In this document: one piece after another, positions 1,252 through 26,905 of the stretch
How the letters are laid out: each line of letters starts with the position of its first letter
Position numbering within the stretch: the first letter of the stretch is position 1
Origin: a virus
Direction: 5' to 3' (one strand)
Virus record (IMG/VR): IMGVR_UViG_3300008267_000122
Span: 1-39,252 of that record
Length of the DNA stretch: 39,252 bases
The notes under the pieces: model-generated
Databases searched by the model: none
Seen by the model: only the letters and a program-made list of their open reading frames with translations
What the model was told of the DNA's origin: nothing
Program-made: the position numbers and the translations under genes

Positions 1252-3414
1252 TTAAAAATCCATACTAAGCTCCACCATCACAGTTCTACCGTTTTGTAAT
1301 CGAATAGGTGAGCTTAATTTACCAATCATAACCAAATCACCAATAGAATCATAGATACCTATTTCACTAACTCTAATGTCAGGTTTAACAGTAGATTCAT
1401 TTGATGTTCTTGTTGGGTTTGATGAATATTTAAAATTATTAGCAGCTATAGATATATTAAATGTTGTTTTATATATACTAGCCCCAATATACGCTTCTAT
1501 ATTACCATAAAAGAATCTTTCATCACCAAATTGTAATGAATTTGGATTATTTATAGTATTCATATTTAATGAATTCATTAAACTAAAATTACTAGCACTA
1601 TTAGTAACCGAATAATCAATTGAAAAACCATTTATTAATGGTGTTTGAACTTCAAGTTGTAATGGGTCTATTGTTTCACCAGCAAAATCTGTTAATGATG
1701 TTGATGTATAATCATATACTTTCCAAGCATCAGGTGATGGTCTTTCACCGTTTGTTACTTGAAATAAAACTTTAAAGTTATAAGCATACCAACCATAACC
1801 ATCATAATTAGTATCTTCTATTTTTCTCATGTATGGGAACATGTCGATTTCTGACATTCTAAATTCAACATCTTTACCTGTTGATGATGTATTTGTTACA
1901 CCTATTACTTTTTGACATGGTAATGTTGAAGTTAACCCTGATACTGAATCATTTTCAAAAGTATATGTTAACCACATAGTTTCTGATGGATTCAATGCTG
2001 CATTAATACCAGCTGGTGATTTAAGTGTAGCACTTAAAGGTGGTAATGTCCAATTTCTATTTGATTTATATGAAATTGCTGCAATTAATTCGTCATCAGT
2101 AAGTACTATAATTTTATATTGTGGTAATACCATACCAACCACCATTGGTGTTTGTTCTGCTGGTATTAACAATGGATTCTCATGTAATTCAATATATTCT
2201 ATTTGTGATGTACCTATAAATTTAGTAGACCCACTAGCTAAGAATGACATACCCATTGTTGTTCCACTTCCAGTTGAGAAATCTCTTCTATGCCACATTA
2301 AGTCTGGCATATGTACATTTACAGTTTTTCCATTAGTATCATCAATATATAAGAATTCACCATAGAAATTAGATATTGTATTGTTAGAATAATGTAAGAT
2401 TGAAATTGATTTTACTGTGTTGTCTAATACAGAACCACCAGGTGTACCACAGACATCAACCATTTCACTAATTGTACTCATAGCTTCGCTAATCCCTAAA
2501 AACGGTCTTGCCATACCTATGTAAGAATTAGAACCAAATAATTCATGACTTTCATATGGTGTCATTGATGTTGCTTGAACACTAGTACCACTCATACCAA
2601 TTAAGTCTTCAATAAATACATTATTCATATTCCAAACTGGTACATCATTAATCGATACATCACAACATCCATCAAAATCTAAAGTATTTGTATTCCAGTA
2701 TGGAATTGATGTATCTGAATCATAATAATCTGAAAAATTACTAGGATATATCATAAATTGAGTATCAGCTGAACTAGCACTCAAATTTGGTAAATATCTA
2801 TCAACATTTATTGTGTCACCAACATCTGTTGTTGTTGCTGTAGATACAATTTGATACCATATATGTGGTACTGGTTTTGTATTTTGATTTTCAGCTAAAT
2901 TTGTACCTAAATAGTCATTATTATATTTAAATAATATAAAATCACCAACACTTAATGTATTACCAGTTCCTATTACTAATGAACTTGTACCACTAAATGA
3001 ACTGTTATTAACATTACCAAAACTTTTAACATATGTATTACCAGTTAAAGTCGTAAATTCATCATGTGCTGCTGATGCTGAGAAAAAACCTCTTTCTTTT
3101 GCTTTGTTATTTACAATAGCTTTAATTGTATTAATTTGACCACTTGTAAATGAATTTAATGCTGTTGTACCATCTTTAGTAATGAAAGTTTTTAAATTAG
3201 GTTGTAAATCAGCTGGAGATAAAACTTTAATATCACCAAAATTAGTTAATGGATTGTTATCGATTAAAGATACTCTATCGTAATTTATTTCTGAATCACC
3301 AATAGCCCAAGCACTAAAATTTAATTGACCTTGCGCTAATTTTTTTCTACCAGTATCTGTCAATTTAACATTAACGATTGGTGAATTACTATTTTCTAAT
3401 GTTATATAACTCAT
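1252..3414 (-). CDS. Large tail-fibre-like structural protein
   Basis: 720 aa. The N-terminal module (KLTDTGRKKLAQGQ, then WAIGDSEINYD, about residues 17-45) and the C-terminal module (VSEIGIYDSIGDLVMIGKL near 680-700, ending MVELSMDF) are homologous to those of the 400-aa protein that follows. The extra length is a central insertion rich in Ser, Thr, Gly and Asn that includes a GDFILFKYNN-type beta stretch near residue 155. The family resemblance is to tail-collar fibre proteins. The pair looks like a duplication that kept the conserved ends and diverged in the middle, where host contact would be expected. It is preceded by a 97-nt gap holding a promoter-like motif and a weak hairpin, so it may head its own late transcript. 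The exact virion position cannot be read from sequence. Confidence 0.7.
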   Translation of the reverse strand: MSYITLENSNSPIVNVKLTDTGRKKLAQGQLNFSAWAIGDSEINYDRVSLIDNNPLTNFGDIKVLSPADLQPNLKTFITKDGTTALNSFTSGQINTIKAIVNNKAKERGFFSASAAHDEFTTLTGNTYVKSFGNVNNSSFSGTSSLVIGTGNTLSVGDFILFKYNNDYLGTNLAENQNTKPVPHIWYQIVSTATTTDVGDTINVDRYLPNLSASSADTQFMIYPSNFSDYYDSDTSIPYWNTNTLDFDGCCDVSINDVPVWNMNNVFIEDLIGMSGTSVQATSMTPYESHELFGSNSYIGMARPFLGISEAMSTISEMVDVCGTPGGSVLDNTVKSISILHYSNNTISNFYGEFLYIDDTNGKTVNVHMPDLMWHRRDFSTGSGTTMGMSFLASGSTKFIGTSQIEYIELHENPLLIPAEQTPMVVGMVLPQYKIIVLTDDELIAAISYKSNRNWTLPPLSATLKSPAGINAALNPSETMWLTYTFENDSVSGLTSTLPCQKVIGVTNTSSTGKDVEFRMSEIDMFPYMRKIEDTNYDGYGWYAYNFKVLFQVTNGERPSPDAWKVYDYTSTSLTDFAGETIDPLQLEVQTPLINGFSIDYSVTNSASNFSLMNSLNMNTINNPNSLQFGDERFFYGNIEAYIGASIYKTTFNISIAANNFKYSSNPTRTSNESTVKPDIRVSEIGIYDSIGDLVMIGKLSSPIRLQNGRTVMVELSMDF

Positions 3415-5654: not shown

Positions 5655-6992
5655 TTAACTTCTATTATAAAAATAATCCCAATTAGCTCTAGCTCTAACC
5701 CAATCACTTTCAGTTATTTTTATTGAACCCAAAAACGTTGGATTACAAAAAGCTGGACCACTGGATATACGATAAGCGTATTTTTTATTAATAGCAAATG
5801 GGTTATTTACTGTTTCTTTGTTACTATTTTCATTATTTGCTGATATAATATTTAAGTCATCTTCAGTTAACTTACCAAAAGTCGTATGAGTGTCTCCAAC
5901 AACTAAATTATATTGTATAGGATTTGACGGATTGCTAACTAATAACCCTTCAAAATCTACATTTGATTGATAATCAATACTAGTAGCACTAATAGCTAAT
6001 GTTTTAGGCATTTCTTGAAATGTAACATCATAAATAACACATTCTGTATTACCGTAATCAATAGTTTCTAAATGAAACCCTTTAATGTTACAATTATTAG
6101 TCTCAACATTATTAGTCTCACTAAAAACTAAGTTTGTTTTTCTATATCTATGTTTTTGTTGATGAAATATACTATTTCTAACTACATCAGTAGCACCCCA
6201 TATTGTTGTTGATGGTACAAATTGTTCAGCTAAATCAATCCAATGTTTGCCTACTACATTTATAAAACCATCCATTGTTTTGTATGTGAATTTATTTGTT
6301 TCGCAATCACCACAATTACCTAAATATCTATCATATAACAAATTTAATGTTGGGTATGCTGATAATGTTTTCCTATTTTTAACATCGATTAATTCTGATA
6401 TAGCAGCTTTTCTAAATTCATCAACATTATTTATTTGTGATAATTCTGTTGTTAATTTTTCATCTAAATCTATATATTCACAACCATAACAAATTTTTGA
6501 TGATTCTTCCATATATTTAGGATTCCTACCATAGTCATTACCTTCAACTAACCATCTAATTTCAGTTAGAATATCGTTAAATTCATTATATGTGTTGACA
6601 TAATCTTGATATACTGAGTAATCAAAACAATGACCACTCCATATAACAGTACCGTATGATGTTGTTGTTTCAGCAGTATAGTTAGGAGCATCATTAATAC
6701 CATTCATCATATTTATAAAAACCTGAAATTTATCAAAAAGTTCTAATGTTTTAGGACCATGATATGGAGGTGTATCTACTCTGATTAAACTAAATAATGA
6801 ATTTACTTCTGCCATTTTTTCTTCATTAAAACAAGTAGTTGATGCTAAATACCATTGATGAAAAGCTTTTATATACGCATTCCTTGTTTCTCTAGCAGTA
6901 CCAGCTTCATCTTCCCAATCACCAAAAACTTTAATATTATTTTTACCTATAACTCTACTGGTGCGATAATCTTCTAAATCAAAAAAATACAT
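5655..6992 (-). CDS. Tail/baseplate structural protein with FDLEDY N-terminal tag
   Basis: 445 aa. It begins MYFFDLEDY, a tag shared with the 135-aa and 1187-aa proteins upstream. After the tag, a segment (GDWEDEAGTARETRNAYIKAFHQWY) resembles the same region of the 135-aa protein, so the two share a longer N-terminal domain. Residues about 245-285 (KHWIDLAEQFVPSTTIWG, RNSIFHQQKHRYR) form a distinctive block rich in aromatic and basic residues; I recall similar blocks in structural proteins of other marine phages but cannot name a family. There are several CxxC-like pairs (CYGCEY, CGDCE). It follows the DUF1566 protein with a 2-nt gap. Virion location is inferred. Confidence 0.6.
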   Translation of the reverse strand: MYFFDLEDYRTSRVIGKNNIKVFGDWEDEAGTARETRNAYIKAFHQWYLASTTCFNEEKMAEVNSLFSLIRVDTPPYHGPKTLELFDKFQVFINMMNGINDAPNYTAETTTSYGTVIWSGHCFDYSVYQDYVNTYNEFNDILTEIRWLVEGNDYGRNPKYMEESSKICYGCEYIDLDEKLTTELSQINNVDEFRKAAISELIDVKNRKTLSAYPTLNLLYDRYLGNCGDCETNKFTYKTMDGFINVVGKHWIDLAEQFVPSTTIWGATDVVRNSIFHQQKHRYRKTNLVFSETNNVETNNCNIKGFHLETIDYGNTECVIYDVTFQEMPKTLAISATSIDYQSNVDFEGLLVSNPSNPIQYNLVVGDTHTTFGKLTEDDLNIISANNENSNKETVNNPFAINKKYAYRISSGPAFCNPTFLGSIKITESDWVRARANWDYFYNRS

Positions 6993-6994
6993 AT

Positions 6995-7948
6995 TTAAAA
7001 TTTTTTAATAACTATTAGTGCGTATAAATTAGTTTTATCTGCTAAAAAACTTGTGTTAGTTAAAAAACTATAAGCCCAAGCTTGCTGACTATTATATTCC
7101 GTGGATGTCCAAACAACACCTCTTAATTCAATACCTAATTGTGCATAATTACCACCTATAAGTTCCATTTCAGTTTTACTAGGTAAATAATAATCATCAT
7201 ATGTAACACCTTCTTGTGTTGTGTGTGTATAATCTTTAGCAATTTTAGCTACATTATTTTCTGAACCGTAAGTACTAACTATCAAATCTGTATTTGATGC
7301 ACCACTGTATATACCATCAGATGTAGCATTAACTAATGTTGTGTTTGAGCTATGCCAATAATATGAACTTGCTGTTGTTTGTTTAACTGCAAAACCATTA
7401 ATATTGTTAGATTCTAGATATGCACATACACCAAAATCAAGTGGTTGACTTATATAATACCCATTCGGATTGCATTTATTTTTAAAATATTTTTCTATCT
7501 GAAAATTAAATAAATCAAAATTAGCAAATTCAAATGGAAACGTTGCTAATTTAAGTTGATTAACTGATTTTATCGCATTATCTCTTCTAGCTCTATTAAA
7601 AGTACCAACATCTTCACAATCACCAAACCTAGTTACATTTTCGATTCTTTTAATAGCTGATATAGAACATCCTACTAATACTTTTTTATCATCCAAATAT
7701 TCTCTTGCACCAAAATCTTTTAATTCTTCACCACCATATTCATCAATTTGTTTAATTGTTGGTCGTTTAACTCTATATTCTAAATTATCAACATTAACCC
7801 TACGATATGATTTTATATGATTATTATATGACGCAAATATACCTTCATTCAAAGGTTTACAATTACAGTCTTCTGATAAACAATCATTTGATATTGGACT
7901 TATCAATGTAAAAATATTTTCAGTATTGCTAAATGTTTGAAATGGCAT
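6995..7948 (-). CDS. DUF1566 / C-type-lectin-like tail protein, possible receptor-binding or diversified protein
   Basis: 317 aa. Residues about 190-317 match the DUF1566 (Lcl C-terminal) pattern: YYWH near the domain start, GASNTDLIV, VAKIAKDY, then DDYYLPSKTEMELI and VVWTSTEYNSQQAWAYSF near the C-terminus. The common family form is GxxNT ... DWYLPSxxEL ... YWSSTEYN ... AW. Such domains adopt a C-type-lectin-like fold and are used as ligand-binding ends of phage tail proteins. They are also frequent targets of diversity-generating retroelements, where the W-x-STEY...AW end is the variable part. The N-terminal 180 residues are unrecognised and include a short Cys cluster (CLSEDCNC). No reverse transcriptase or template repeat is seen here, so diversification is only a possibility. 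Confidence 0.65.
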   Translation of the reverse strand: MPFQTFSNTENIFTLISPISNDCLSEDCNCKPLNEGIFASYNNHIKSYRRVNVDNLEYRVKRPTIKQIDEYGGEELKDFGAREYLDDKKVLVGCSISAIKRIENVTRFGDCEDVGTFNRARRDNAIKSVNQLKLATFPFEFANFDLFNFQIEKYFKNKCNPNGYYISQPLDFGVCAYLESNNINGFAVKQTTASSYYWHSSNTTLVNATSDGIYSGASNTDLIVSTYGSENNVAKIAKDYTHTTQEGVTYDDYYLPSKTEMELIGGNYAQLGIELRGVVWTSTEYNSQQAWAYSFLTNTSFLADKTNLYALIVIKKF

Positions 7949-7969: not shown

Positions 7970-8377
7970 CTAATAAGTAAAATCTTCGAAAGTATCACCA
8001 TCTAAATATGATAACATGCTTTTTAATATGCACATGCTATTTGAAATACCATTAATGTATTCATCATATATTTCTTTAGTTACACCTTCCATTGAGTTGT
8101 CAGCCAAATCCCAGAAATTAGTCCAAGATGAACCTGTTAGACCGTTTAAAAACTCAGAATATAATTCAGTATCGTTTGTATCAAATTCAGTACAAATACC
8201 ATCAGGTTTTTTTATTATAGTCTCATCTCTCCATCTACTTACTGCTAAAATCATAGCACCTCTAGTGTTATTTGCATCACCTCTAATAATGTCCCAATGC
8301 TCAGGGCTAGTCAATTTCTGATTATTTGGTCCCATAAAGGATATATAACAATAATCTTCTGTGTCAAAAAAGTACAT
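7970..8377 (-). CDS. Small FDTEDY-tagged protein, probable tail component
   Basis: 135 aa. It begins MYFFDTEDY and continues with a segment (PEHWDIIRGDANNTRGAMILAVSRW) that parallels the 445-aa protein's N-terminal domain. It therefore looks like that N-terminal domain standing alone with a short acidic, helical C-terminal part (EIYDEYINGISNSM, YLDGDTFEDFTY). It sits between the 1187-aa tagged protein and the DUF1566 protein. Possible roles are a docking subunit or a shortened paralogue of the 445-aa protein. The reading frame is intact and start and stop are clear, so nothing indicates a pseudogene. Confidence 0.6.
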   Translation of the reverse strand: MYFFDTEDYCYISFMGPNNQKLTSPEHWDIIRGDANNTRGAMILAVSRWRDETIIKKPDGICTEFDTNDTELYSEFLNGLTGSSWTNFWDLADNSMEGVTKEIYDEYINGISNSMCILKSMLSYLDGDTFEDFTY

Positions 8378-8387
8378 AATTAATAAT

Positions 8388-11300
8388 TTATATAAAATAT
8401 TTTTTTATTTGAAACGATGGTAAATAATTAGCTGCCCACAAAAATGGTTTTAACGATAATAATAAGTTATTTTTTCTACTTAAATAAGATGTATGATACT
8501 CTCTTCTGGTATCAATAAAATCAATTAAAGCACCGCCTATAATTTCTGTGGGTGACTCTAATGGTAACCAATTATTTTCAATTGGTGACCAATAATAAGT
8601 TTCATTTGTTGTCCCACTAACGTATACTAAGTCACCAACATTACCTTCTAATGCTAACGATATATCATATATACTAGGGATATATCTAAAATCACCAGTC
8701 ATAGCAGAAAATACATCATTTAATGATAAATCAATAGGTTCTATATTTTCATACCATTCTGAATAATCAATTGGTAATCTATGTCTTTTGTATTTAATAC
8801 GTTTTAATGGTCCTTTGTAAAATGATTTATCTACAAATTCATCTGTATTTATATAATCCCAAAACTGAACAAATGAATTATAAGTAGATAAACCGCTAAA
8901 ATCAGTAATACCATGTGTTATTCCACTAAGTATTGAATTATTAATATTACTAAAATAACTATCTCTAAGACTTCTATATGTAGCTGATAATTCTTCATTA
9001 TAACATGGGTAATTTTCCAATTCTTCACATGTTGGTATGAATCTTATATCATCCATCAAATCTAGTTGATTAAATACTATGTCATATGTAACACCATTAA
9101 CGTCACAAAGACCCAATGTGTCTTCACATGTATTTGCTTCTACTACATAACAACTTATTGTTAAATCTAGTTTAATATCAATAACAAAACCATTTATTAA
9201 TATTCTTGTATTTGTATTATCTGTTATTATACTTGTTGAACCACTATGAGTTATGTCTAAATTTAAAATATTTGATACTGTTTCTAATATTTCTTTATAT
9301 GATTCTGATGTTGGTATTAAATCTAATAATAAATTTCCAGAACCGTTAAAGAAGATATCTTCATACAATGTTTCACAATTATTTTTAGCAGTTATTGTCC
9401 ATACTGAAGTAAACATGTAACCACTATATGGTTCATATTCAGAAGGTATTGTATTTAAAAATATTGATTCAAAATCAGGAATATTATTTACCTCAATACT
9501 ATTTAAATCATATGTTGAACCAGTTAATAAACAGCTATTGCTTTGAATTGAACATAATATGTCTTCTTCAATTGCATTTGACCCATCTATTTTTAATTCT
9601 ATTTCTTTTGTATTTAGAATCAATTTATAATCATTTGCATTATATTGTGTTTCTCTAAAAGTTAAATCAAATTCTCTTGCTATTTCACCATCACCAACTG
9701 ACCAAGATTTTTTATTATCCATAACTTTTTCTACTTCAAACCCTATTGGTTTTGTTATGGTTATCTCTTCGTTATCAACTGAGTTACAATATTTATTAAA
9801 ATTAATTTTATCAATTAAAAAACATAAATCAATACAACAAGATTCAACTAAAATTGAAAATCTTATTTTAGTATTTTTTATTTTTTCTATTGTTTCCTTA
9901 GGTATTGATATGTTATAATTAACCCAAGTTGAGTTATACCAAGAATTTAATTTTTTTGTTAATTCAATTTGTTCTTGATTAGATGTCGGTTCTGGATAAT
10001 TACCTTTATATCTTTCTAAATATAAAGTTTTAATAAACTCATCTCTATGTGTTTCACAATTAACTGAGTTAGAACTATTTTCACGATATGTAGTAGCATA
10101 ATCTTCTAAATCAAAACCATATGGTGGTGTTAGTAAACCATTTGAAGTCGCACCTGAAATTATAATACCAGTATTAGGACTTTTTGAATCAATGAAATTC
10201 ATCATGTTATTTTCACCGATATTAAACAAAGTTTCTTCATATACTGAAGAATATACATTGTTATTATTATCATGTTCTAATACAAAGGTTATTTTAATAT
10301 TTTCAAGATTTTTTAATGTATCACTATATGAACTAACAGATTTAAGAGCGTTTAATCTATTAGTTAACTCATTAATTTGATTATTTAAATTAGTTAATGT
10401 TGTTTTATATTGACTATCTAATAATTTATATCTATTTAGTTCATCATTTTTAATTTTCTTATCACAAACACCTTGTGTTGTTTCAACATAATAATTAGGA
10501 ATAGGCATGTTATTAGCACTAGATTCTTTAAATACATTAGCAATAAAATCATTAAAATTAGTTTGTGTATATTGTGTTTCATCACAACCATAATTATCAA
10601 TAAATTTTTTATATTTCTCAGGACCTAATATATTAGACCAAACTTCTAATCCACTTCTATTTAATAAATAAACTTTTGGTGTTAACGAATTAGTACTTGC
10701 TACAGCACTATATGCTTTTTTACCATATAAATAAAACCCAAATAATGTTGGTGGTAAATCTGTATTATTAGTACTAACACTATTTATAGTATCATATTTA
10801 AATGTTAATCTGCTATAATCTAAACCTAAAGGTAAAATAACATTATATGGTTTACTTTCACCAAATGTTTGTGGAGTATCACCATATGTAGTAATTGATG
10901 GTTGAAAGTCTGTATTGTATTCTACATCTACTGGCATTTGATATCTATTAATTGTTGTATCTGTGGTGGTAGATGTAGTTGTAGTGGTTGGTTGGAAATC
11001 AGTATTCAATTCAACATCTATTGGTGTTTGATATCTATTAATTGTTCTTGGTGTAGTAGGTGTATTTGTAGTAGTGGTTGTTGGTATTGTTGTATTGATA
11101 ATTGGAGTTATACCATCACCATAATTGGTTGTCCCATCTACAGACATAACTTCTTCACCAAAATTAAAGCTACCACGTCTCCAAGTATCTATAGTTGTAT
11201 TTTTTGTAGTAGTGGTAGTAGTACCATCTGTATTAGTTGTGGTTGTAGTAGTACCATCTGTATTAGTTGTGGTTGTTGTTGGTGTAGTAGTAGTGGTAGT

Positions 11301-11951
11301 ACCATTTGTTGTAGTTGTTGGTATTACTGGTGTGTTTCTTGTTGTAGTAGTTGTAGTACTAATTGTTTCTTCTTGTGTTCTACTAATATAATTAACAGAA
11401 TTAATCATACCTTTAATTACATAAGGTAAATTATTAAACTCTTGTTGTGTTTGATTTAATATATTACTATTGAATGTTGCTTCACTTAATGTTGTATCAT
11501 ATTGTCTTTTTAATCTTTTTAATTCATTTTCAAGTGAATTTATTTCATCTTGATTATTTGAACATGTTGATTTAAATAATGTACAATCAAAATTGATTAA
11601 ATAATCAAAAGATATATCTAATGTACAAGTTTCACCTTCATTTATTTTAAATAAACTACCTTTACTTTTATTTGAATTAAATACCACTTTCTTAACACAA
11701 TCATCATTACAAGATGAACTAGATGGTGTTTTCCAATAACATTTTTGTTTTTCAATATCAAATTTATAACCTAATCTTTCACAACATTCTTTGTTTCTAA
11801 TATCAGTATATGGGTTTCCATTTTTAAGATATACTTCTACTTCTCCGTTAGTATTATTAATAACGGTAGCACCAATGGCTTTTAATTGTTCCATTGTTTT
11901 ACACACATTTCTGTATGTACCAGCATAATCTTCTAAATCAAATTTGTACAT
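8388..11951 (-). CDS. Large FDLEDY-tagged fibre-like structural protein with poly-Thr linkers
   Basis: 1187 aa. Layout: the tag MYKFDLEDY at the N-terminus; a small Cys-containing segment (ECCERLGYKFDIEKQKCYW, about 54-73); a predicted coiled coil (about 134-172); a Thr-rich low-complexity region with NTDGTTTTTT units (about 198-300); two copies of an NRYQxPxDVExNTDFQP module at about 305 and 335, separated by more Thr; a globular stretch; a second coiled coil (about 500-550); then a second, internal copy of the tag (YGFDLEDYATTYR, about 611-623) beginning what looks like a fused second unit. The far C-terminus is unrecognised. Coiled coils, Thr linkers and a modular layout fit an extended virion fibre or adaptor. 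Function and placement are inferred. It starts 44 nt after the 951-aa gene. Confidence 0.6.
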   Translation of the reverse strand: MYKFDLEDYAGTYRNVCKTMEQLKAIGATVINNTNGEVEVYLKNGNPYTDIRNKECCERLGYKFDIEKQKCYWKTPSSSSCNDDCVKKVVFNSNKSKGSLFKINEGETCTLDISFDYLINFDCTLFKSTCSNNQDEINSLENELKRLKRQYDTTLSEATFNSNILNQTQQEFNNLPYVIKGMINSVNYISRTQEETISTTTTTTRNTPVIPTTTTNGTTTTTTPTTTTTNTDGTTTTTTNTDGTTTTTTKNTTIDTWRRGSFNFGEEVMSVDGTTNYGDGITPIINTTIPTTTTTNTPTTPRTINRYQTPIDVELNTDFQPTTTTTSTTTDTTINRYQMPVDVEYNTDFQPSITTYGDTPQTFGESKPYNVILPLGLDYSRLTFKYDTINSVSTNNTDLPPTLFGFYLYGKKAYSAVASTNSLTPKVYLLNRSGLEVWSNILGPEKYKKFIDNYGCDETQYTQTNFNDFIANVFKESSANNMPIPNYYVETTQGVCDKKIKNDELNRYKLLDSQYKTTLTNLNNQINELTNRLNALKSVSSYSDTLKNLENIKITFVLEHDNNNNVYSSVYEETLFNIGENNMMNFIDSKSPNTGIIISGATSNGLLTPPYGFDLEDYATTYRENSSNSVNCETHRDEFIKTLYLERYKGNYPEPTSNQEQIELTKKLNSWYNSTWVNYNISIPKETIEKIKNTKIRFSILVESCCIDLCFLIDKINFNKYCNSVDNEEITITKPIGFEVEKVMDNKKSWSVGDGEIAREFDLTFRETQYNANDYKLILNTKEIELKIDGSNAIEEDILCSIQSNSCLLTGSTYDLNSIEVNNIPDFESIFLNTIPSEYEPYSGYMFTSVWTITAKNNCETLYEDIFFNGSGNLLLDLIPTSESYKEILETVSNILNLDITHSGSTSIITDNTNTRILINGFVIDIKLDLTISCYVVEANTCEDTLGLCDVNGVTYDIVFNQLDLMDDIRFIPTCEELENYPCYNEELSATYRSLRDSYFSNINNSILSGITHGITDFSGLSTYNSFVQFWDYINTDEFVDKSFYKGPLKRIKYKRHRLPIDYSEWYENIEPIDLSLNDVFSAMTGDFRYIPSIYDISLALEGNVGDLVYVSGTTNETYYWSPIENNWLPLESPTEIIGGALIDFIDTRREYHTSYLSRKNNLLLSLKPFLWAANYLPSFQIKKYFI
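10098..10115 (-). repeat. Internal copy of the FDLEDY tag sequence
   Basis: The 18-base string encoding FDLEDY is identical here, at 11925-11942 (start of the same gene) and at 6966-6983 (start of the 445-aa gene). A diverged copy lies at 8351-8368 in the 135-aa gene. This internal copy is also preceded by Y-G in place of the start-side Y-K or Y-F. Confidence 0.85.
10937..11046 (-). repeat. 90-nt-period duplication (NRYQ...DVE...TDFQP module)
   Basis: The 20-base string tttgatatctattaattgtt occurs at 10937-10956 and again at 11027-11046, exactly 90 nt apart. The flanking sequence encodes the same module twice (NRYQ, then P-x-DVE-x-NTDFQP). The two copies are separated by a Thr-rich linker within the 1187-aa protein. 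Confidence 0.85.
11221..11280 (-). repeat. Tandem 30-bp repeat encoding NTDGTTTTTT units
   Basis: Two adjacent 30-base units begin with gtaccatctgtattagttgt. They differ only near the end and lie within a longer GTA/GTT-rich stretch (about 11200-11370) that encodes the Thr-rich linker of the 1187-aa protein. Such repeats are prone to copy-number change while keeping the frame, because 30 is a multiple of 3. Confidence 0.85.
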
Positions 11952-11995
11952 CTATCTTTTTTATTAATATAATTTATAATTTTAAATTTTGTATA

Positions 11996-14851
11996 TTATT
12001 CATATAATGATTTTGTATAAGTAGTATCTACATAAGTATAAGTAGTTATACAACCGAGTCTACCAGTACTCTTATAAAATAAATGTTTAGCGTAATCAGT
12101 TATAACTAATTTAGCTTCATTAGTTAATGTGGTATATCTTGTTAATAATTTACAAGCATAACCTTTTTCATTTGTTACTGGGTCAGTAACTAATTCTGGA
12201 ATAGATAAACTTAAAGGACAAAACCCAGAATCAGCTGGATTTGTATATTTAAATTCTGGTGGTCCAATTAAATAACCAGAACCATCGGTTTTAACCACAC
12301 CCCATGAATTGTATGGTGAGACAAATTTTAAATATCTTACGTTATTTATTTTCCATGTGATATCTTCTATGTCTAATTTTTTATTATTTAATGTTTTAAA
12401 ATCTGACCCATCATTATTTGTAAAAGGTAATCTCCATTTACAAGATAAGAAAGAACCACCACCTTTAATACCATAATCTTTTTTATCAGCTTCAGATTTT
12501 AAACACACATATCCAGTATTTAATGGTATAGTTAAAAATGCTTTATTATCTCTACTATATTCTATATTGTATTTTTCATATAAATAAGGTGTTCCACCAT
12601 CTAATTTACAACATTCTTGTTCTCTAAAAATAGTCTCGTATGTACCAAAATATGCACCGCTTCTATTTTTAATTTTTTTATTATAAATAAAAATATATGG
12701 GTAACTTTGCATATCTTCAGGATTTGATTCTGCAAATCTTTTTGAACTTAATTCAAAGTTGCAATCATATTTTTGTTCATTTTTCTTTAAACAAACTGAT
12801 AGCATGTCGTCATCACCAATACAATCACAACCACAAGCTGTTTGTTCAGCTGTTGGATATGGGTCTTGTGATATATATACTTGAGGTATAACACAATTAG
12901 CAATAGAACCATTATTCTTATTTACAACATCAACATATAAGTTACCACTATAATTATTCATTTTACCTCTATTATAGTTATAAAATAAATTAGTACTACC
13001 TGTTATATATGTTGTATTTGTAATTGTAAATGGTTGAAAGGTATTTACATCAACACCCATGACATTATTTAATTGGTCAAAATAATTTTTACCACCATCA
13101 TATGGTCCTAAATGTGGGTTGTTTCCATTTAAATAATGGTCATTACTATCGACACCATATGTTTGTCTATACCAACCACCTTTTGATTGAAAATAACTAT
13201 CAGTATTGTTATTCGATAATTTTGGATACCCTTCAGAATCGATATTGTATAAGTTTAAGTCTGGCTCAAACTGAAGTCTTTCTAGTACAGCATAAAATAA
13301 ATCCATGTCTATTTTATTCTTAACTTTATATACATATTCATTTAAATCTATTAAACCTTTTGGTGCTCCAACAAATCTCATTAAGAATTCAATGGCTTTT
13401 CTAGACCCTTTAGATTTAAATAAAAAAGAAGAGTTTAGTATTAATCTTCTCCACATCTCTATTTCAGCTTCTTGTGGTGTAAAACCAATACTATGTCCAG
13501 AATATGTTGAGTCTTTAGGTGTGATTAATTCTTTTATTAAATTATCATTACTAAATGAATTAGTTAAATCCCAACCCATAGTATAAGCTAAGTCTTTTAC
13601 TATCTGGTCAGGTGCATTATCATATTTATCATATGTAATTGTATTTGATTTTTTAATACCATCAATCCATAGTTTTACTTCATCATATTCTCTACCATAT
13701 ATTCTTAGTACTTTTCTCATTTTTTGAGCTTCGGTTTCTAAGAATGAACCATCTATCTGTGGTAATGTATCAAAACTACTTATTGATTCAGAGACTAAAA
13801 ATCTAGTCATCAAATCTGAAAAATTATTATCAGATTGAGTTGCTAATTCTAATAAAACATTAATATATGATACGTAATAATCGTTATTAAAATCTAAGTT
13901 ATAACCATCTGATGTAGGCCAAGTTAAATTTCTTGTACCATTTATAATTACATTTTCTTTAGTTTTAACCCTATATTTAAATGTAGCAGTATATAATGGT
14001 GTTATTTTTCTATTTAATAGATTTTTTTCAAAAATACCTAACCCATTAAAAAATTCATCACATTTTAATTTATTAGGTTTAATATGAAAATTATAATTAG
14101 GCATTGTGGTTGCAGATACACCAAAAGGTGAACCTGAAACTTCTAAATATATCATGTTATTAACATCAGGTGTTGAACCTTCAAATCCTAAGATATCATA
14201 TTCCTTACCTTCATAACTAATAACATAGTTTTTGTAACTTATTGCTAAATTTCTTAATTTATTTTCTTGGTTATATGAATTTAAAACATCACCATTTTTA
14301 TTTAGGATAATATCAAATTTATTATCTATAGAACTTAAATTAACTGTAAATGACGTAACATCAGTTAATGGGTTATAATTATAGTCGTTTAAACTATATA
14401 CACCATTTGTATTGTTATATATTTTAACATACAATGATGCTGGCCAATTTAAGATTATATTTTCTAATGTAACTCTAATATATTCAGTTGCCGAACCAAA
14501 ATAACTTAATTTAGCTAAATCTCTATAATCTACGTTTAATGTTAATTTTGTATTTTTTTCTAATATTTGTTTACTATTTGACGCAAACTCTTCATTAAAA
14601 GTTAATGTACTTAAACTAAAAAAATCACTAAATTGTTTATTGTTATTTGCTATTACAACTCTTTCTGTAGCACCACTTTCTATTTGAAAGTTATTAAGGG
14701 TGAATATTGACGTTTTTTGAATATCACCATTCGTTCTAGTTGTTTGTTGATTACCAACTAAATCTTCTGACCATGGTCTATACTCAATATTACCATTGTA
14801 GGTAATCTTTTGCGTATATCCTGGTACTCTTATCAAATCCCCTTTTGCCAT
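11996..14851 (-). CDS. Large baseplate/tail-wedge-type structural protein
   Basis: 951 aa. The first 340 residues are beta-rich. Residues about 375-510 are helical and basic: RIYGREYDEVKLWIDGIK, then an LAYTMGWDL motif, then MWRRLILNSSFLFKSKGSRKAIEFLMRFVGAP. The 'LxxxxYLxKxKGTxxAIxxLLxxxG' form of this region recalls tail protein I/baseplate-wedge proteins of contractile phages, although the overall length is far greater. The C-terminal third has a CGCDC cluster (about 673-677) with further cysteines, and an ECC motif near 746. It follows the 298-aa gene after 5 nt and precedes the tagged fibre proteins. A baseplate role is inferred. A neck or whisker role cannot be excluded. Confidence 0.6.
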   Translation of the reverse strand: MAKGDLIRVPGYTQKITYNGNIEYRPWSEDLVGNQQTTRTNGDIQKTSIFTLNNFQIESGATERVVIANNNKQFSDFFSLSTLTFNEEFASNSKQILEKNTKLTLNVDYRDLAKLSYFGSATEYIRVTLENIILNWPASLYVKIYNNTNGVYSLNDYNYNPLTDVTSFTVNLSSIDNKFDIILNKNGDVLNSYNQENKLRNLAISYKNYVISYEGKEYDILGFEGSTPDVNNMIYLEVSGSPFGVSATTMPNYNFHIKPNKLKCDEFFNGLGIFEKNLLNRKITPLYTATFKYRVKTKENVIINGTRNLTWPTSDGYNLDFNNDYYVSYINVLLELATQSDNNFSDLMTRFLVSESISSFDTLPQIDGSFLETEAQKMRKVLRIYGREYDEVKLWIDGIKKSNTITYDKYDNAPDQIVKDLAYTMGWDLTNSFSNDNLIKELITPKDSTYSGHSIGFTPQEAEIEMWRRLILNSSFLFKSKGSRKAIEFLMRFVGAPKGLIDLNEYVYKVKNKIDMDLFYAVLERLQFEPDLNLYNIDSEGYPKLSNNNTDSYFQSKGGWYRQTYGVDSNDHYLNGNNPHLGPYDGGKNYFDQLNNVMGVDVNTFQPFTITNTTYITGSTNLFYNYNRGKMNNYSGNLYVDVVNKNNGSIANCVIPQVYISQDPYPTAEQTACGCDCIGDDDMLSVCLKKNEQKYDCNFELSSKRFAESNPEDMQSYPYIFIYNKKIKNRSGAYFGTYETIFREQECCKLDGGTPYLYEKYNIEYSRDNKAFLTIPLNTGYVCLKSEADKKDYGIKGGGSFLSCKWRLPFTNNDGSDFKTLNNKKLDIEDITWKINNVRYLKFVSPYNSWGVVKTDGSGYLIGPPEFKYTNPADSGFCPLSLSIPELVTDPVTNEKGYACKLLTRYTTLTNEAKLVITDYAKHLFYKSTGRLGCITTYTYVDTTYTKSLYE

Positions 14852-14856
14852 TTATA

Positions 14857-15753
14857 TTAAACGTTTGCTATATCATTAAAATTTTTATTAAAATCAATTG
14901 TAGTTCTTTTTTCTTTAACTTCATATAAAGGAACACCAGTAAATTGACTTTTAATTTCAAATAAGTTATATTGTTCATATATCTCATTATTAAAGTTATA
15001 GATAGTATAAATACCATCTTCAATACTTTTAGTTTGGTTACCAAATAATCCAATAGCTAATGTATCAAAGTCATGTTCAACCATTTCAACTTCGATAGTC
15101 ACTGGATTAAATAACGTATGTGTTAAAATAATTTGTTGATTTGGTTGTCCGATGAATGGAAATACATCAGATTTTACATTTGTAGGTGCGTTTGGTGTTA
15201 CAGTACAAAAAACTAAGGTAGAATTATCATTAAATCTATATCTTATAGCTTTTTGATTACTATTTGATAAATTCTGAGTTACTGGTTCTACTTTATTGTT
15301 AGATGTAATTATTCTAAACAAATCTCTTATCTTTGTTGTAGGATTGTTAGGGTCTAAATATTCAACTCTATAACCAATTAACCCATTATTTTCAAGTTTA
15401 TCAGCAAAAGCTGATAAATTAGGGTCTGCTGAATCTAATATAATACCTTTTACATCTGGTAATCCAGTTAACACACCACAATCAACTATGGTTGCTTTAA
15501 TTTCAATAGGTTTTATTACAATAGTATAAATACCTTTATTTTTAAAATCATTAACAGGTAATTTTAAATTATATAACCCATTCAATATATCAATACCTAA
15601 ATCATCATTAGCAATATTTGTTAAATTATTTGAACTTAGTGTGAATGTATTGGTTATTCCACTTTCTCTATTTTTAGAATAAAAAACTTTTATTTGTACA
15701 TCTGAAGGCCTAACATCTGCACCTCTTACTATACCGTAAACTCCTGTTGACAT
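14857..15753 (-). CDS. Hypothetical tail/baseplate protein (298 aa)
   Basis: 298 aa, unrecognised. It is predicted beta-rich, without membrane segments or a signal peptide. It opens with MSTGVYGIVRGADVRPSDVQIKV, then alternating strands (GIYTIVIKPIEIKATI, LVFCTVTP, PVTIEVEMVEHDF). It lies in a run of closely spaced genes: 13 nt after the 299-aa gene and 5 nt before the 951-aa gene. Position and composition suggest a baseplate or fibre-connector component. No known fold can be named from the sequence alone. Confidence 0.6.
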   Translation of the reverse strand: MSTGVYGIVRGADVRPSDVQIKVFYSKNRESGITNTFTLSSNNLTNIANDDLGIDILNGLYNLKLPVNDFKNKGIYTIVIKPIEIKATIVDCGVLTGLPDVKGIILDSADPNLSAFADKLENNGLIGYRVEYLDPNNPTTKIRDLFRIITSNNKVEPVTQNLSNSNQKAIRYRFNDNSTLVFCTVTPNAPTNVKSDVFPFIGQPNQQIILTHTLFNPVTIEVEMVEHDFDTLAIGLFGNQTKSIEDGIYTIYNFNNEIYEQYNLFEIKSQFTGVPLYEVKEKRTTIDFNKNFNDIANV

Positions 15754-15766
15754 TTTTTAAATTATT

Positions 15767-16666
15767 TTAAATGTTATTTATTTTGTAATATCCGTTACCA
15801 TACCTCTCCAATTGTTCCAAAGTATTTATTTCAGCAAGTCTACCATGTTGTCCAAACACTGTTGACCCCCCTCTTTCAATAAATATATCACTTTCAACTT
15901 TTGGTGGTTGTGTTATGTATAATAGATATTCTTCTCTGGTCATTGCAGACATATCCATGTTGGTTTCATTCATGCCTTGACCTTTATAATATATCTTAGT
16001 AGTTGGTATTGTTTCAGTGGTAAATTCATCTGTTACAATTCTTGTGTTATTTATAAAGGTATGATATATTATACCATCTTCAACATACGGTGGTGTTATA
16101 TTTAATAAGTTTTTATCATTAACATCAATTAACTCACCATAAACTATGGGATTGAAATCTGTATTAGATATAACCATATTACTTCCAACTATAGTTTTAC
16201 CAGTGAAATTATAATAACCAACAGTATCTACTATATTACCAACAATATACTGACTATCACCAGTGTAACCATATGTTCTAACAGCTTCTAATTTATCATC
16301 TGTTATACCACTAACACTAATACCTTTTTGGTAATAATCTTTTTTAGTTTTATCACTATATCTAACGTCATAACTAAAGTTATCTTTATTAAATACAGGT
16401 TTATAATTACTATTTTTTATAAATTCAAAATTAGCTGTATAACCTAATATATCTATTAATGGTTTATAATCAACTAATTTACCAGTATCTTTACTAATAG
16501 TACCTTTAGGTATAAATTCTTTAGGTAATAACATACCCAAATCTTTTATGTCTTGTTCTATATTAATTAAAAGATTAATTGTTGTTGCAGTAATAGTACC
16601 CCATGTCGAATCATGAGCTCTACTTCTTAAGCTTTCTAATAATATTTTTCTTTTAATTATCTCCAT
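15767..16666 (-). CDS. Hypothetical tail/baseplate protein (299 aa)
   Basis: 299 aa, unrecognised. The first 45 residues are amphipathic helices (MEIIKRKILLESLRSRAHD, then TINLLINIEQDIKDLGMLLP). The rest is beta-rich with many Tyr and Asn, and a short segment near 235-255 reads MNETNMDMSAMTREEYLLY. The ATG shares one base with the TAA of the upstream gene (TAATG), indicating coupling to the 311-aa product. Structural role inferred from position. Confidence 0.6.
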   Translation of the reverse strand: MEIIKRKILLESLRSRAHDSTWGTITATTINLLINIEQDIKDLGMLLPKEFIPKGTISKDTGKLVDYKPLIDILGYTANFEFIKNSNYKPVFNKDNFSYDVRYSDKTKKDYYQKGISVSGITDDKLEAVRTYGYTGDSQYIVGNIVDTVGYYNFTGKTIVGSNMVISNTDFNPIVYGELIDVNDKNLLNITPPYVEDGIIYHTFINNTRIVTDEFTTETIPTTKIYYKGQGMNETNMDMSAMTREEYLLYITQPPKVESDIFIERGGSTVFGQHGRLAEINTLEQLERYGNGYYKINNI

Positions 16667-17559: not shown

Positions 17560-19423
17560 CATTACTAGAATTAACATTAAATTTATCTGTAAATGAATCA
17601 CCTACAATATCTTTAGGTGAAAACAAGTCGTCATCACCTTCATAGTATAAATCAAATTGACCAAAAGGGTCTTGTCTTTTTACTGGAAAAAATATATTTT
17701 TATATAAATAATGACAACCATTAACAAAAGGAAAATCTAAATTCTCACCTAGATTGGATGTACCAGCATCTAAAAAATCTCTCCATATGTAAGTGTTTGG
17801 TGATATTTCGTATTTGTACTCTGGCATACCACTTGTTGTATCGTCACCAGTTTCAATATAATCAGAAAAGGACCTTATTTTAATTTTATGATGTGGTTTG
17901 TATATATAACCTTCACATCTTATCCCTTCTATTGTTTTTTTCATTTTGTTTTTATCTGTTTCAGCATCATCAACTAAATCTATTTTTTCTGTTAATTCTC
18001 TATCAACAGTATTAAATCTATGCATAACATCAGCTAATACTGTTTCATTAAATTCATAAGGTGAAAACTCAACTAAATCACCATAAAAAGTTGAACTATT
18101 AATATCAACTTTTAACCCTTTATCTAAAGGTATGTGGCTATTAAATGGTGCTTTCTTATCTTTGGCTAACGTATGCATTTTTCTAATATTAGACATATTT
18201 AAAAATGTATCAGAGTTAGTTTTTAAATTACCTTCTATATTAGCTAAATCAAAACCATCCATAACGCTTGTGAATATTCCATCGCTCTTGGTTTTTAATA
18301 TAGTTAAATATATTTCACTTAATGGTCTGTTTAAATTATCTTTTAACCCATCTAAATATATGTCTTCATTAAATATTACTTGATATATTGAATCATTAAA
18401 TATGTTTTTTGAAAATCCAACAGGAAATAATTCATAATCATCATTTTCTATTTGTTTATTAGTTAAGTAACCATTAACTTTTCTAAATATTCTTAAATAA
18501 TATTTGACTTCAGTATTATAATATAATCTTTTCATTCTACCCCCATTGAAACCGATACCTATATATGGTGCTACTAATGAATCTGTAGAATATAAAGTAA
18601 TAACAAAATAATATTCTTCTAATGTACCATCTTCTAAACCTAAACCTATAACATCATAGTCACCATTTAATAATGAATTAGGCATATTGGTTATTCTTAC
18701 TTTATCACCAATACTTAAATTATGTTTAACACAAGTACCTAAAGCTATTAAATTTCTACCAGCAAATATCCTATCTCTCATTGTTGTTATTAACAATCCG
18801 TTTCTAACTAACAAATGGTCAGTATCATTCTTATATGGATATGTTATGGTTAAATCCCAATTTTTTTTTATGTTATTATTAAACTCAAATCTATATCTAC
18901 TTGGTTCTAAATCATAATAACTACAGTCACCAGCTTTTGTTTCGTCTGGGTCAAAAAAACCAAACCAACCGTTAATTTCTTTTAAGTGTTTTTTTATTGA
19001 TTGTTCAAATGTAAAATCTTGTCTACCTAAAAATGGGTTTTCATTTAATGCAGTCGCACCATCAGCAACATTAGTTTTAAATATGTCTTGCTTAAATAAA
19101 TCATAATTAAAAGTTTCCCAACCATAACTTTTACTAGTACTTAATTCATCATTATTTGTTGTTGAACCAAAATTATTTTTTACTTTATCACTACTAACAT
19201 TAAATAATACATTACTAATTAATGGGTTTATCGTACTTATTACTCTATATCTAGAACTTTCATTTCTTTCTTTGTTAAATTGTTCAGATTCATTAACAAT
19301 ATAGTTTAATTCAGTAGGTGGTAATTGTTTTTGATAATTTGTCAAATATAAAGGTAGATTAGTATCTAAATTAATTGATAATTTAGAATTTGTTTTTTTT
19401 AATCTATTTTGTATTCTATCCAT
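17549..19423 (-). CDS. Hypothetical tail/baseplate structural protein (624 aa)
   Basis: 624 aa, no named family. The N-terminus is basic and helical (MDRIQNRLKKTNSKL). Residues about 230-277 contain CVKHNLSIGDKVRI then LLNGDYDVIGLG, an H-x-L-x-x-GD-x-V-x-I ... NG-x-Y-x-V pattern that recurs in beta domains of phage structural proteins. Later segments are acidic or aromatic (NPEYKYEI-like; YIWRDFLDAGTSN). No signal peptide or membrane helix. It starts 17 nt after the 1616-aa gene and overlaps the next gene by about 11 nt. The size and its place in the middle of the baseplate run suggest a baseplate or tail-hub component; this is inferred. Confidence 0.6.
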   Translation of the reverse strand: MDRIQNRLKKTNSKLSINLDTNLPLYLTNYQKQLPPTELNYIVNESEQFNKERNESSRYRVISTINPLISNVLFNVSSDKVKNNFGSTTNNDELSTSKSYGWETFNYDLFKQDIFKTNVADGATALNENPFLGRQDFTFEQSIKKHLKEINGWFGFFDPDETKAGDCSYYDLEPSRYRFEFNNNIKKNWDLTITYPYKNDTDHLLVRNGLLITTMRDRIFAGRNLIALGTCVKHNLSIGDKVRITNMPNSLLNGDYDVIGLGLEDGTLEEYYFVITLYSTDSLVAPYIGIGFNGGRMKRLYYNTEVKYYLRIFRKVNGYLTNKQIENDDYELFPVGFSKNIFNDSIYQVIFNEDIYLDGLKDNLNRPLSEIYLTILKTKSDGIFTSVMDGFDLANIEGNLKTNSDTFLNMSNIRKMHTLAKDKKAPFNSHIPLDKGLKVDINSSTFYGDLVEFSPYEFNETVLADVMHRFNTVDRELTEKIDLVDDAETDKNKMKKTIEGIRCEGYIYKPHHKIKIRSFSDYIETGDDTTSGMPEYKYEISPNTYIWRDFLDAGTSNLGENLDFPFVNGCHYLYKNIFFPVKRQDPFGQFDLYYEGDDDLFSPKDIVGDSFTDKFNVNSSNDGC

Positions 19424-19440
19424 GATATTGTATTCTTTTA

Positions 19441-22400
19441 TTATTTAGCTTTAACACCTTCAAGATTTGGGTCTGAATTTATACTTATAATTGGTGAATT
19501 TGGTTCACCAACCAATATTTTAGAATTATTAACATTAATAAAATGATAAGTACCACTTTTATTAGTATAGTTACCAAACCCTAGTCTATCGTCATCACCT
19601 AGTGCTGCCCATGTACTATCTGGTTCAAAAGTAGTGTAACAATTCATAACGTTAAATGAATCTTCTTGATATCTATCAGATATTTCATATGTAAAATCTG
19701 TATGCGCATCCCATGTTGCAGTATTTGGATTGTATCTAGTAGCAAAAATAACAACAACTCTACCCCAATTTTCGTCAACTGTATTATCATCATTTAAATC
19801 AACCCAACCACCTGTGTAATGTGGTGTACTTGTCGTTAATGGTTTATATGGGTGAACTATCCAGAAAAAAATGTCATCCTTACTAGTATCAACTGAATTT
19901 TTTGTTTTGTAATTTAATCTTATTTTATAAAATCCATTACTAGCATTCCATCCAGTACCACCTACTTTAATAACTATACTATATACTTCAAAATTACCTA
20001 GTCTAGATAAACTATCGTTTGTTGTACAAAATCTAGCACTTTGACCAGTCTTTGTGTTTGTATATGGATACATACCATTACATCTAGATATTTGTCCATC
20101 ATAAGCATTATAATTAACTATAATTATAGGTGAATTTTCTTCTGCTAATGTATATTGTTTTACCATGTATTCATTATTTGGTAATCTAGTATAGTCTATA
20201 TCAGTTAAGTACGTACTTGTACAACCACTAGCATCGGTAACTCTAATGTTATATGGTTTATTACAAACCCATTGTTTATTTACTCTTTTACACCCACTAT
20301 ATAATCCAATAGCTTCTACTTCTTCACCACTAGTTTTTGCTATTTTACTTACATATGATTCACCATCAAATTCACATGTGAAAGGTGGGTTATCACCTTC
20401 AACTTTAATTTTTAAATAACCATTTTCAACATCAGGGAATGATGATGGTAACATCTTAAGTACTTGAACATTTATTCTATTTGGTTCTTCAATAGTAAAT
20501 CTTTTAGTAGCTTTATTACCACCTAAATCAGTAACCGTTAATTTATATACACCAGCAACTAAATTCTGTGGTGAACTTGATGTACTAATTACTGTATTAC
20601 TTAAATTTCCATATAAATAATTCCAAGTATGTTCTAATAAGTATTCGTATGTATATGGTTTAACACCACCTTCAACAGTTGCGTTAGCAAATCCATCATT
20701 AGCACCATAACAACTTAATTTAGGTATAATATTAGGTGCTTCTTCTGTTGGAGTACTACTATGTTCAATATCTATTATTAAATTTTCAGGTTTTACTATG
20801 GTAAAATTAGCAGTAGCTTCTGTTTTTATTTTTGAACCACTATCAATTACTTTTACGATATAATTACCTTCTAATAATTGTTCTGAAGAGTTTCTACCAT
20901 CATCAGTTAAGTTACAACTACCATAACAATACCCAGCAGCTGGAATACTACTATTGTATAATAATGGTAATGTCATTTTACTACTTAAAATAATTTCACC
21001 ATTTGCATCTAATTTATATATTTCTACATTATAAGGTGCAGTACCATGACTTATTAATATTTTAATTTTACCACTACCAGTTGATGTGATTGGACTTGGA
21101 AATGCTTGACATTCAACACCGATAAATCCACCAACTACTATATTATTTGATGTTACACTACCGATTGAATCTGAAACTTTCATAGTGTATGTTCCACCAA
21201 ATAAATCTTTTAATAATCCTTTAGTTGAGCAATTATTTTTACTATTATTACAAGGTTTACCAGTTGATTCATCATAACAACAGTAATATCTAACACCATT
21301 AATAAGTGGTCCTTCTATTTCATATCTATAAGGTTTTACACCGCCCACCACAGTATATTTTATTGCCCCAATACCATCTCCAGTCACACTATCATCAATA
21401 ATATCATTAACAATAACAGACATTTCTATTTTTTTATTTTCAGGACACGGTGCAAAATATTTCTTTTTGAATTTATTTAATGCTGAACTACCTTGTAATA
21501 GACCAAAATAAAAATATAATGAATTACCATAAAACCATATACCTTCATTCTTGTCTCTTAATGCCCTATATTTCCAATAATATTCATTATTATATTCATA
21601 AGTATTTTTAGGTGAAGTATCTTTATCTAAAAACCCAAGTTGTATTTTATTAGGTAATTTCTCATTAAATACACCATTAACATACATGATAGCACCTCTG
21701 ATAAAAGCATTACTAACATCACCATTGTTTATTATGAAATCAGCTTTTAATCCACCATCATTTCTATTGTCTTCATCAGCTGAAACGCCAAATTCACTTA
21801 ATCTTTTAACATTATTACATTGTTGTGAACCTAAACTCAATGATGTACAATTTATATTACATATTTGTGAATTACTTAATTTATCATCTGGTGAATCAAA
21901 ACCACTTTCCATTACATCACCAACATAATCACCATCATCATGATATATATTAACCAATGTAGGTCTATTATATGTTGTATCAATTAAAAAATCATGAATT
22001 CTTGGGATACCTTGCCAATCACAATCATACATAGACCCTAAACATATTAATTTTGTCGCATATAATCTAGCATTAGATGTTCTTGAGAAAGCAGCATAAA
22101 ATAATTCATCTTTATATTTCTTAATTATACCTTCTTTTATTTGTATTGAGTTGTATGTCTCACCTAATTCATCATTTTTGAATACTCTACCTAATATTGT
22201 TTGAGGTGATAACTGAGGTTTTGCTGAAACACATGTATCTACAATATAATTTGTAAAACAACTATTATCTGGTTCATTGTCTTTATTGTTGTCAACACCA
22301 GATGAAGTATTACAGTCTAATTCACAGAATTTCTCCTTACCTTTACCTCGTCTTCTAACTTTATATTTTAATAAAAATGAATATAAACTACCATTAATCC

Positions 22401-26524: not shown

Positions 26525-26905
26525 TTATAAATTTATAGTAATAATCTCGTTCTCAGAGAAAACACCACTTGTTATTGAATAATCAATCTTAACTGTCGCA
26601 GCAAAATCACTTAATTCTGATGTTTCTATTATAACATCATTTATCGTTAAATTCGGCATGAACTTTTTAACTGTATCTCTAATTTCTGTCTTTAAATCAG
26701 TTATATTTTTTGGTGTATTTTCAGTGAATATGAACCTTAGTAAATTAGTACCAAAGTCTGGCATATATAATCTTTCGCCTTTTCTAGTTAATAATAAATG
26801 CATTAAATCTGATTTAATTGCTTGACTATCAATCTCATTCATACCTAAATAATAACCTAAATCATTATTTTTAAATGGGAATGTTATATTAATATATTTT
26901 GGCAT
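26525..26905 (-). CDS. Baseplate wedge protein, gp25-like (GPW_gp25 family)
   Basis: 126 aa, the normal length for the family. Motifs: IKSDLMHLLLTRKGERLYMPDFGTNLLRFIF (the family core around the conserved glycine and 'ER-x-x-x-PDFG' stretch), then TDLKTEIRDTVKKFMPNLTINDVII. gp25 is a baseplate wedge component related to the sheath-assembly initiator in contractile tails and type VI systems. It is the first gene of the structural run. A promoter candidate lies immediately upstream and the NrdA terminator just beyond that, so it probably heads the late transcript. Functional call is firm; exact contacts are inferred from the family. Confidence 0.9.
   Translation of the reverse strand: MPKYINITFPFKNNDLGYYLGMNEIDSQAIKSDLMHLLLTRKGERLYMPDFGTNLLRFIFTENTPKNITDLKTEIRDTVKKFMPNLTINDVIIETSELSDFAATVKIDYSITSGVFSENEIITINL

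Follow-up and report, generated by a model that had tools for sequence, protein, structure and literature searches.

Among described proteins, Legionella Lcl is a DUF1566 protein with a solved C-terminal domain (PDB 8Q4E), and the role of DUF1566 was described there as unclear, with carbohydrate recognition and/or trimer formation as possibilities (PMC10723406). DUF1566 is also the commonest annotated target domain of diversity-generating retroelements (DGRs) in human microbiomes (PMC4159848). Among viruses, DGRs mostly target tail proteins, and C-type lectin folds characterize the annotated VR regions (PMC8144416). Here a phage protein with such a domain is analyzed, whose end an initial annotation had considered a candidate receptor-binding domain, possibly diversified by a retroelement.

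The phage fragment and its DUF1566 protein

The window, a virus record of 39,252 bases with a GC content of 27% that was analyzed over its whole length, is a fragment of a T4-like myophage. It encodes NrdA, NrdB, DnaB, a gp47-like exonuclease, UvsX and gp32-like proteins together with baseplate genes. The structural genes follow in series on the minus strand after the gp25- and gp6-like baseplate genes, and the gp6-like gene served as the anchor for the collection of relatives (62 loci). As NrdA is closest to the enzymes of Cellulophaga and Tenacibaculum phages (35-37%), and with a DUF1566/Lcl_C family that occurs chiefly in genomes of Bacteroidota, a host among the Bacteroidota is probable. 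Between nrdA and nrdB lies a homing-endonuclease-like gene (29173-30843; PHROG 559, 3e-138) that contains three 167-nt repeats. An Rfam search of the window and of L003, part of a near-identical phage, gave no matches. The features relevant to the 317-aa protein are as follows.

26525-26905, minus strand: baseplate wedge protein, T4 gp25-like (PHROG 261, 6.4e-16)
24692-26512, minus strand: baseplate wedge protein, T4 gp6-like (PHROG 6, 1.8e-20)
6995-7948, minus strand: 317-aa protein of the tail region, the target of this analysis (open reading frame)
7463-7948, minus strand: its N-terminal half, residues 1-162 (no database match among the phages searched)
6998-7462, minus strand: its DUF1566/Lcl_C domain with C-type-lectin fold, residues 163-317 (phmmer, alignment A1, AlphaFold, BFVD)
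7169-7192, minus strand: motif YYLPSKTE, residues 253-260 (family consensus WYLPSKDE; YLPS and E invariant in A1)
7076-7111, minus strand: motif WTSTEYNSQQAW (WTSTEYN...AW), residues 280-291 (family consensus YWSSTE....AW)

The near-identical phage, G001 (L002/L003), is mostly ~99% identical to the window but does not extend to the target gene. The two phages differ at several other sites. The C-terminal part of a 1616-aa baseplate-region protein (19400-20500) is ~15% different in G001, with all types of substitution, and this local hot spot is perhaps the real host-recognition site; the diversification visible in this phage population thus lies away from the target. The DnaB helicase gene of G001 (L003:2119-4623) carries an apparent intein of ~1.1 kb, in frame and within the Walker A motif, which is absent from the corresponding site of the window (32658). 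Another ~0.9 kb are extra in G001 between two structural genes (L002:5128-6199) that are nearly adjacent in the window (15738-15889), and a portion of this extra DNA resembles window positions 30488-30810 in inverse orientation (~68% similarity). Repeats at 11042-11380 of the window encode a threonine-rich linker of a 1187-aa protein; the G001 contig ends there, with indels.

The DUF1566 domain was searched with phage DUF1566 proteins gathered through two degenerate-pattern scans of IMG/VR. In phmmer comparisons the target matched these proteins with E-values down to 1.5e-12, and the longest matches span residues 163-317. It also matched the Legionella Lcl C-terminal domain (2.8e-4), and PHROG 4245 matched residues 189-298 (2.4e-7). 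By sequence comparison, the assignment of the protein's end to DUF1566 is confirmed far beyond chance. The domain is C-terminal, as initially annotated, but its extent had been given as the last ~125 residues (6995-7381); it starts near residue 163 (~7462), ~30 residues earlier. The Pfam profile Lcl_C (PF07603) scored below its cut-off on the target (12.5 vs 34.9 bits, E=0.19), this gathering score being a detection threshold and not a property of the family. Eight of nine tested homologues passed it, and the ninth, L170, was narrowly below at 33.5. Both motifs that had been pointed out, YLPSKTE and WTSTEYN...AW, are present at the end of the protein. In A1, an alignment of 33 sequences including the target domain, alignment positions Y100, L101, P102, S103, E106 and S128 are invariant; the LPS.xE and W(S/T)S motifs are thus conserved.

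A structure predicted by AlphaFold with the 33 aligned sequences reached a pLDDT of 88.9 and a pTM of 0.86 for the domain, whereas the whole 317-aa protein modelled from its single sequence gave no usable model (pLDDT 29). The predicted domain has a C-type-lectin-like fold. It resembles Legionella Lcl-CTD (8q4e; Z 15.3 over 124 residues, 2.7 A), Bacteroides BACOVA_04982 (4eps; Z 13.6) and the C-terminal domain of Bdellovibrio Bd2740 (8oks; Z 10.4). The closest viral models in BFVD are phage DUF1566 proteins and one tail fibre.

No Ig-like domain was detected in the 317-aa protein. Close homologues were absent from the scanned viral contigs, the 37 related records and the fetched related loci, and a direct search of IMG/VR returned no close relatives of either this protein or its 445-aa neighbour. 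The A1 profile found no additional copy of the domain in 18 larger related records; that it does detect the window is circular, because A1 includes the target. A match to a Halomonas phage is weak (E=0.4). A tblastn match in Staphylococcus phage BSwM-KMM1 (3e-3) was rejected as spurious, as the stretch contains three stops.

Search for a retroelement

The tools were calibrated on known and newly found DGRs. The reverse transcriptase (RT) profile PF00078 recovered Brt of BPP-1 at 9.2e-19 and a second positive control, G088:C163. The template scan, in which only template adenines may differ between TR and VR, recovered the TR of BPP-1 with 0 non-A mismatches in 120 nt. As an in-family control, 152 domain copies were scanned for templates. 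In L241, a Bacteroidetes MAG, a VR (~10320-10448) and a TR (~11072-11200) differ only at template adenines, and an RT gene (11341-12228) is adjacent, forming a true DGR (10320-12228) on the same DUF1566 subfamily. L225 harbors two copies of the domain that differ mostly at template-adenine sites; both appear to be variable copies belonging to a single DGR, and RT genes occur elsewhere in this genome. Thus some bacteria do have DGRs that target the DUF1566 domain family, as had been stated for such domains in general, and the method detects nearby DGRs. Near-copies in L156, L260, L126, L136, L146 and L234 that came up in the template scan were interpreted as repeats located in the gene or next to it.

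With the same tools neither an RT nor a template was found around the target, and the earlier observation that the window contains neither therefore held. PF00078 found no RT in the 39,252 bases, in the 37 gp6-related phage records, which total 1.87 Mb and include six of 111-321 kb, or in the 50 records from phages that had been retrieved because of their DUF1566-type proteins. The window contains no A-biased template for the target gene: within 90 nt, no fewer than 18 mismatches fall outside template adenines. Nor did the related and family DNA that was fetched (3.15 Mb) yield a template for the gene's end (best, 7 non-A mismatches per 60 nt). A GC tract at the 3' end of the VR, resembling an IMH, is typical of DGRs, though not universal. 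The target has no such tract at its 3' end, where the longest run of G/C is 4 nt, compared to 14 in BPP-1. The VRAVRAF-type terminus of real DGR targets is likewise missing, and in pairs of nearly identical homologues from phages the differences are not concentrated within the last 150 nt.

Codon usage had also been considered as a sign of diversification. The codons TCC, ACG and CAG at the end of the domain are indeed rare in this genome (0.03, 0.06 and 0.12 of the frequency of the most used synonym), but they do not add up to a regional anomaly. C-ending codons account for 3/40 at the target end vs 10/277 in the comparison (p=0.22), G/C-ending codons for 7/40 vs 25/277 (p=0.089), and all 40-codon windows of the target end fall within the 16th-89th percentile of the contig. 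Real VRs of the same family in L241 and L225, in contrast, are clearly enriched in C-ending codons (17/39 and 19/39, p=0.006 and 2e-5). The codon pattern was thus rejected as a sign of a DGR.

These results bear on the proposal that an RT and its template repeat, located where the genome has not been sequenced, rewrite the domain's end. It draws on the L241 DGR and the variable pair in L225, and on the surveys that rank DUF1566 first among annotated targets in human microbiomes (PMC4159848) and place viral DGR targets mostly in tail proteins with C-type lectin folds (PMC8144416). The RT of a DGR is encoded in the genome of its target, usually next to it. BPP-1 and L241, however, have both RT and TR within about 2 kb of the VR, whereas the window has neither. 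The RT is missing from the 37 related and 50 domain-carrying phage records and the TR from the 3.15 Mb, and the target end shows no enrichment of C-ending codons, no GC tract and, in nearly identical homologues from phages, no clustering of differences. Diversification of the target protein by a DGR is not supported, and the suggestion that its end is so diversified was not sustained. A distant DGR elsewhere in this phage, beyond the window, is unlikely; we infer that the remaining part of the genome holds none, and the chance that one rewrites this domain appears very slim. The lectin-like DUF1566 domain is often targeted by DGRs in bacteria, but most of its occurrences in phages come without a detectable retroelement. 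A DUF1566 end alone is therefore no evidence of hypermutation, and the L241 DGR on the same domain family provides a yardstick for later DGR calls.

A baseplate gene probably split around the target

The genes surrounding the target were compared with those of relatives that cover the same site.

8388-11951, minus strand: 1187-aa protein, whose residues up to ~813 form the upstream part of a split baseplate/tail protein (comparison with L065)
7970-8377, minus strand: 135-aa protein; its N-terminus and that of the 445-aa protein are paralogous (z=8.9, sequence comparison)
5655-6992, minus strand: 445-aa protein, whose residues 170-424 correspond to the downstream portion of the split protein and are 50% identical to the 680-aa protein of L065
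6491-9494, approximate boundaries, minus strand: stretch of ~3.0 kb absent from all relatives covering the site (comparison with L065 and L066-L071)

In the close relative L065, whose gp6 is 55% identical, the flanking genes are syntenic, but one continuous 680-aa protein takes the place of four genes in the window. Its residues 32-410 match residues 433-813 of the 1187-aa protein, and residues 425-671 match residues 170-424 of the 445-aa protein. In the distant relatives L066-L071 both parts lie ~40 residues apart inside single proteins of 2,472-2,672 aa. The extra stretch covers the last ~370 residues of the 1187-aa protein, the whole of the 135-aa protein and of the target, and the first ~170 residues of the 445-aa protein. 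Neither the target nor its domain was found in the relatives. This pattern suggests that ~3.0 kb including the target were inserted in this lineage and split the baseplate protein. As the site is covered by one close relative (L065) and a few distant ones, parsimony is the basis for both the direction and the age of the insertion.

Three genes at the split locus also share their beginnings. The segment MY(F/K)FD(L/T)EDY starts the 1187-, 135- and 445-aa proteins (11925-11969, 8351-8395 and 6966-7010) and recurs internally at residue 611 of the 1187-aa protein, so that it occurs four times in the window vs 0.009 expected. Beyond the window it was found, among the relatives searched, only in the same gene of G001. 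It is a possible shared virion-docking peptide. The start of the target does not carry it. A possible short likeness, FGDCEDVGTFNRARRDNAIK, links residues 104-136 of the target to the N-terminus of the 445-aa protein (z=4.1, with the best of 200 shuffles scoring higher), and weakly hints at a shared virion-docking module in the two proteins.

The 3 kb stretch might instead have been joined to the baseplate genes by misassembly, since the insertion site is covered by no second record and the near-identical G001 contig stops inside a T-rich repeat at ~11.06 kb. However, both junctions lie within long intact open frames, the genes are tightly spaced and the codon usage of the target fits the contig. 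In addition, the MY(F/K)FD(L/T)EDY start is common to genes starting inside the stretch and to the 1187-aa gene, which starts outside. A chimera is thus very unlikely. Given a genuine insertion, the split baseplate gene may illustrate how large Bacteroidota phages gain adhesins. That T4-like phages of Bacteroidota alter host recognition by inserting adhesin cassettes into the middle of a conserved baseplate gene, the halves persisting as separate polypeptides whose new gene starts repeat a short docking motif (MY-F/K-FD-L/T-EDY), is a tentative and rather doubtful broader reading. If the cassette reading is true, it represents a route of tail diversification without a retroelement.

Function and comparison with known systems

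The target gene is located downstream (minus strand) of the gp25- and gp6-like genes and beside two tail-fibre-like proteins, and its flanks are syntenic in relatives. One of these neighbours (24-1226) has a weak Pfam match to Phage_tail_fib, and the N-terminus of the other (1252-3414) is similar to that of the first. This operon setting argues for a virion part over a non-virion role. In the homologues L126 and L129 the same domain is carried by tail fibres with a collagen shaft, and the nearest solved structures include adhesin or fibre-tip domains (Lcl-CTD and the Bd2740 C-terminal domain). Because a DUF1566 lectin-like end is combined with a tail/baseplate gene cluster, the proposal of a candidate receptor-binding domain was upheld. 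Domains of this kind serve phages and bacteria in adhering to surfaces.

The protein is likely to be a baseplate- or tail-associated adhesin of fixed specificity that was acquired by insertion. It would be bound to the virion, to which its N-terminal half probably docks it; this docking is a guess, because that half has no detectable homologue. Judged from fold and family, the C-terminal 155 residues would most likely recognise a surface component of Bacteroidota, probably a glycan. The specificity is probably fixed in the sense that ordinary mutations shift it, as do cassettes that are gained or exchanged, whereas a DGR probably does not. The cassette would have arrived with the ~3 kb insertion that cut the conserved baseplate protein into two polypeptides. 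Alternatively, the Lcl_C-like end could chiefly build or cap a baseplate trimer without binding the host, as trimer formation is among the roles considered for DUF1566 (PMC10723406). The absence of the domain from the relatives speaks against an essential structural role in these baseplates and renders this alternative rather unlikely. We regard the adhesin as a further member of the DUF1566 family, whose most interesting aspect is the split-gene insertion.

Among described proteins, the prototype of the DUF1566/Lcl_C domain (PF07603) is the C-terminal domain of Lcl (8Q4E). It and the target have a C-type-lectin-like fold, the LPS..E and W(T/S)S(T/S)E motifs and a C-terminal position of the domain, but identity is only 19%, and the target lacks a collagen shaft and is set in a phage baseplate context. 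The DUF1566/Lcl_C family typically terminates in a VRAVRSF-type sequence, whereas the target ends in LYALIVIKKF. The C-terminal domain of Bdellovibrio Bd2740 (8OKS) shares the C-type-lectin-like fold, but it belongs to a bacterial protein and is 9% identical. BPP-1 Mtd and the DUF1566 target of the L241 DGR likewise carry a C-terminal C-type-lectin fold, that of L241 from the same domain family; unlike them, the target has no RT, TR or VR signature in the window. Phage DUF1566 tail proteins, for example the collagen-like tail fibres L126 and L129 and the DUF1566 proteins of uncultured Caudovirales phages in BFVD, align over the full domain (23-33% identity) and have the same fold. The target differs from them in its N-terminal half, which is unrelated to anything found, and in the position of its gene within the locus of a split baseplate protein.
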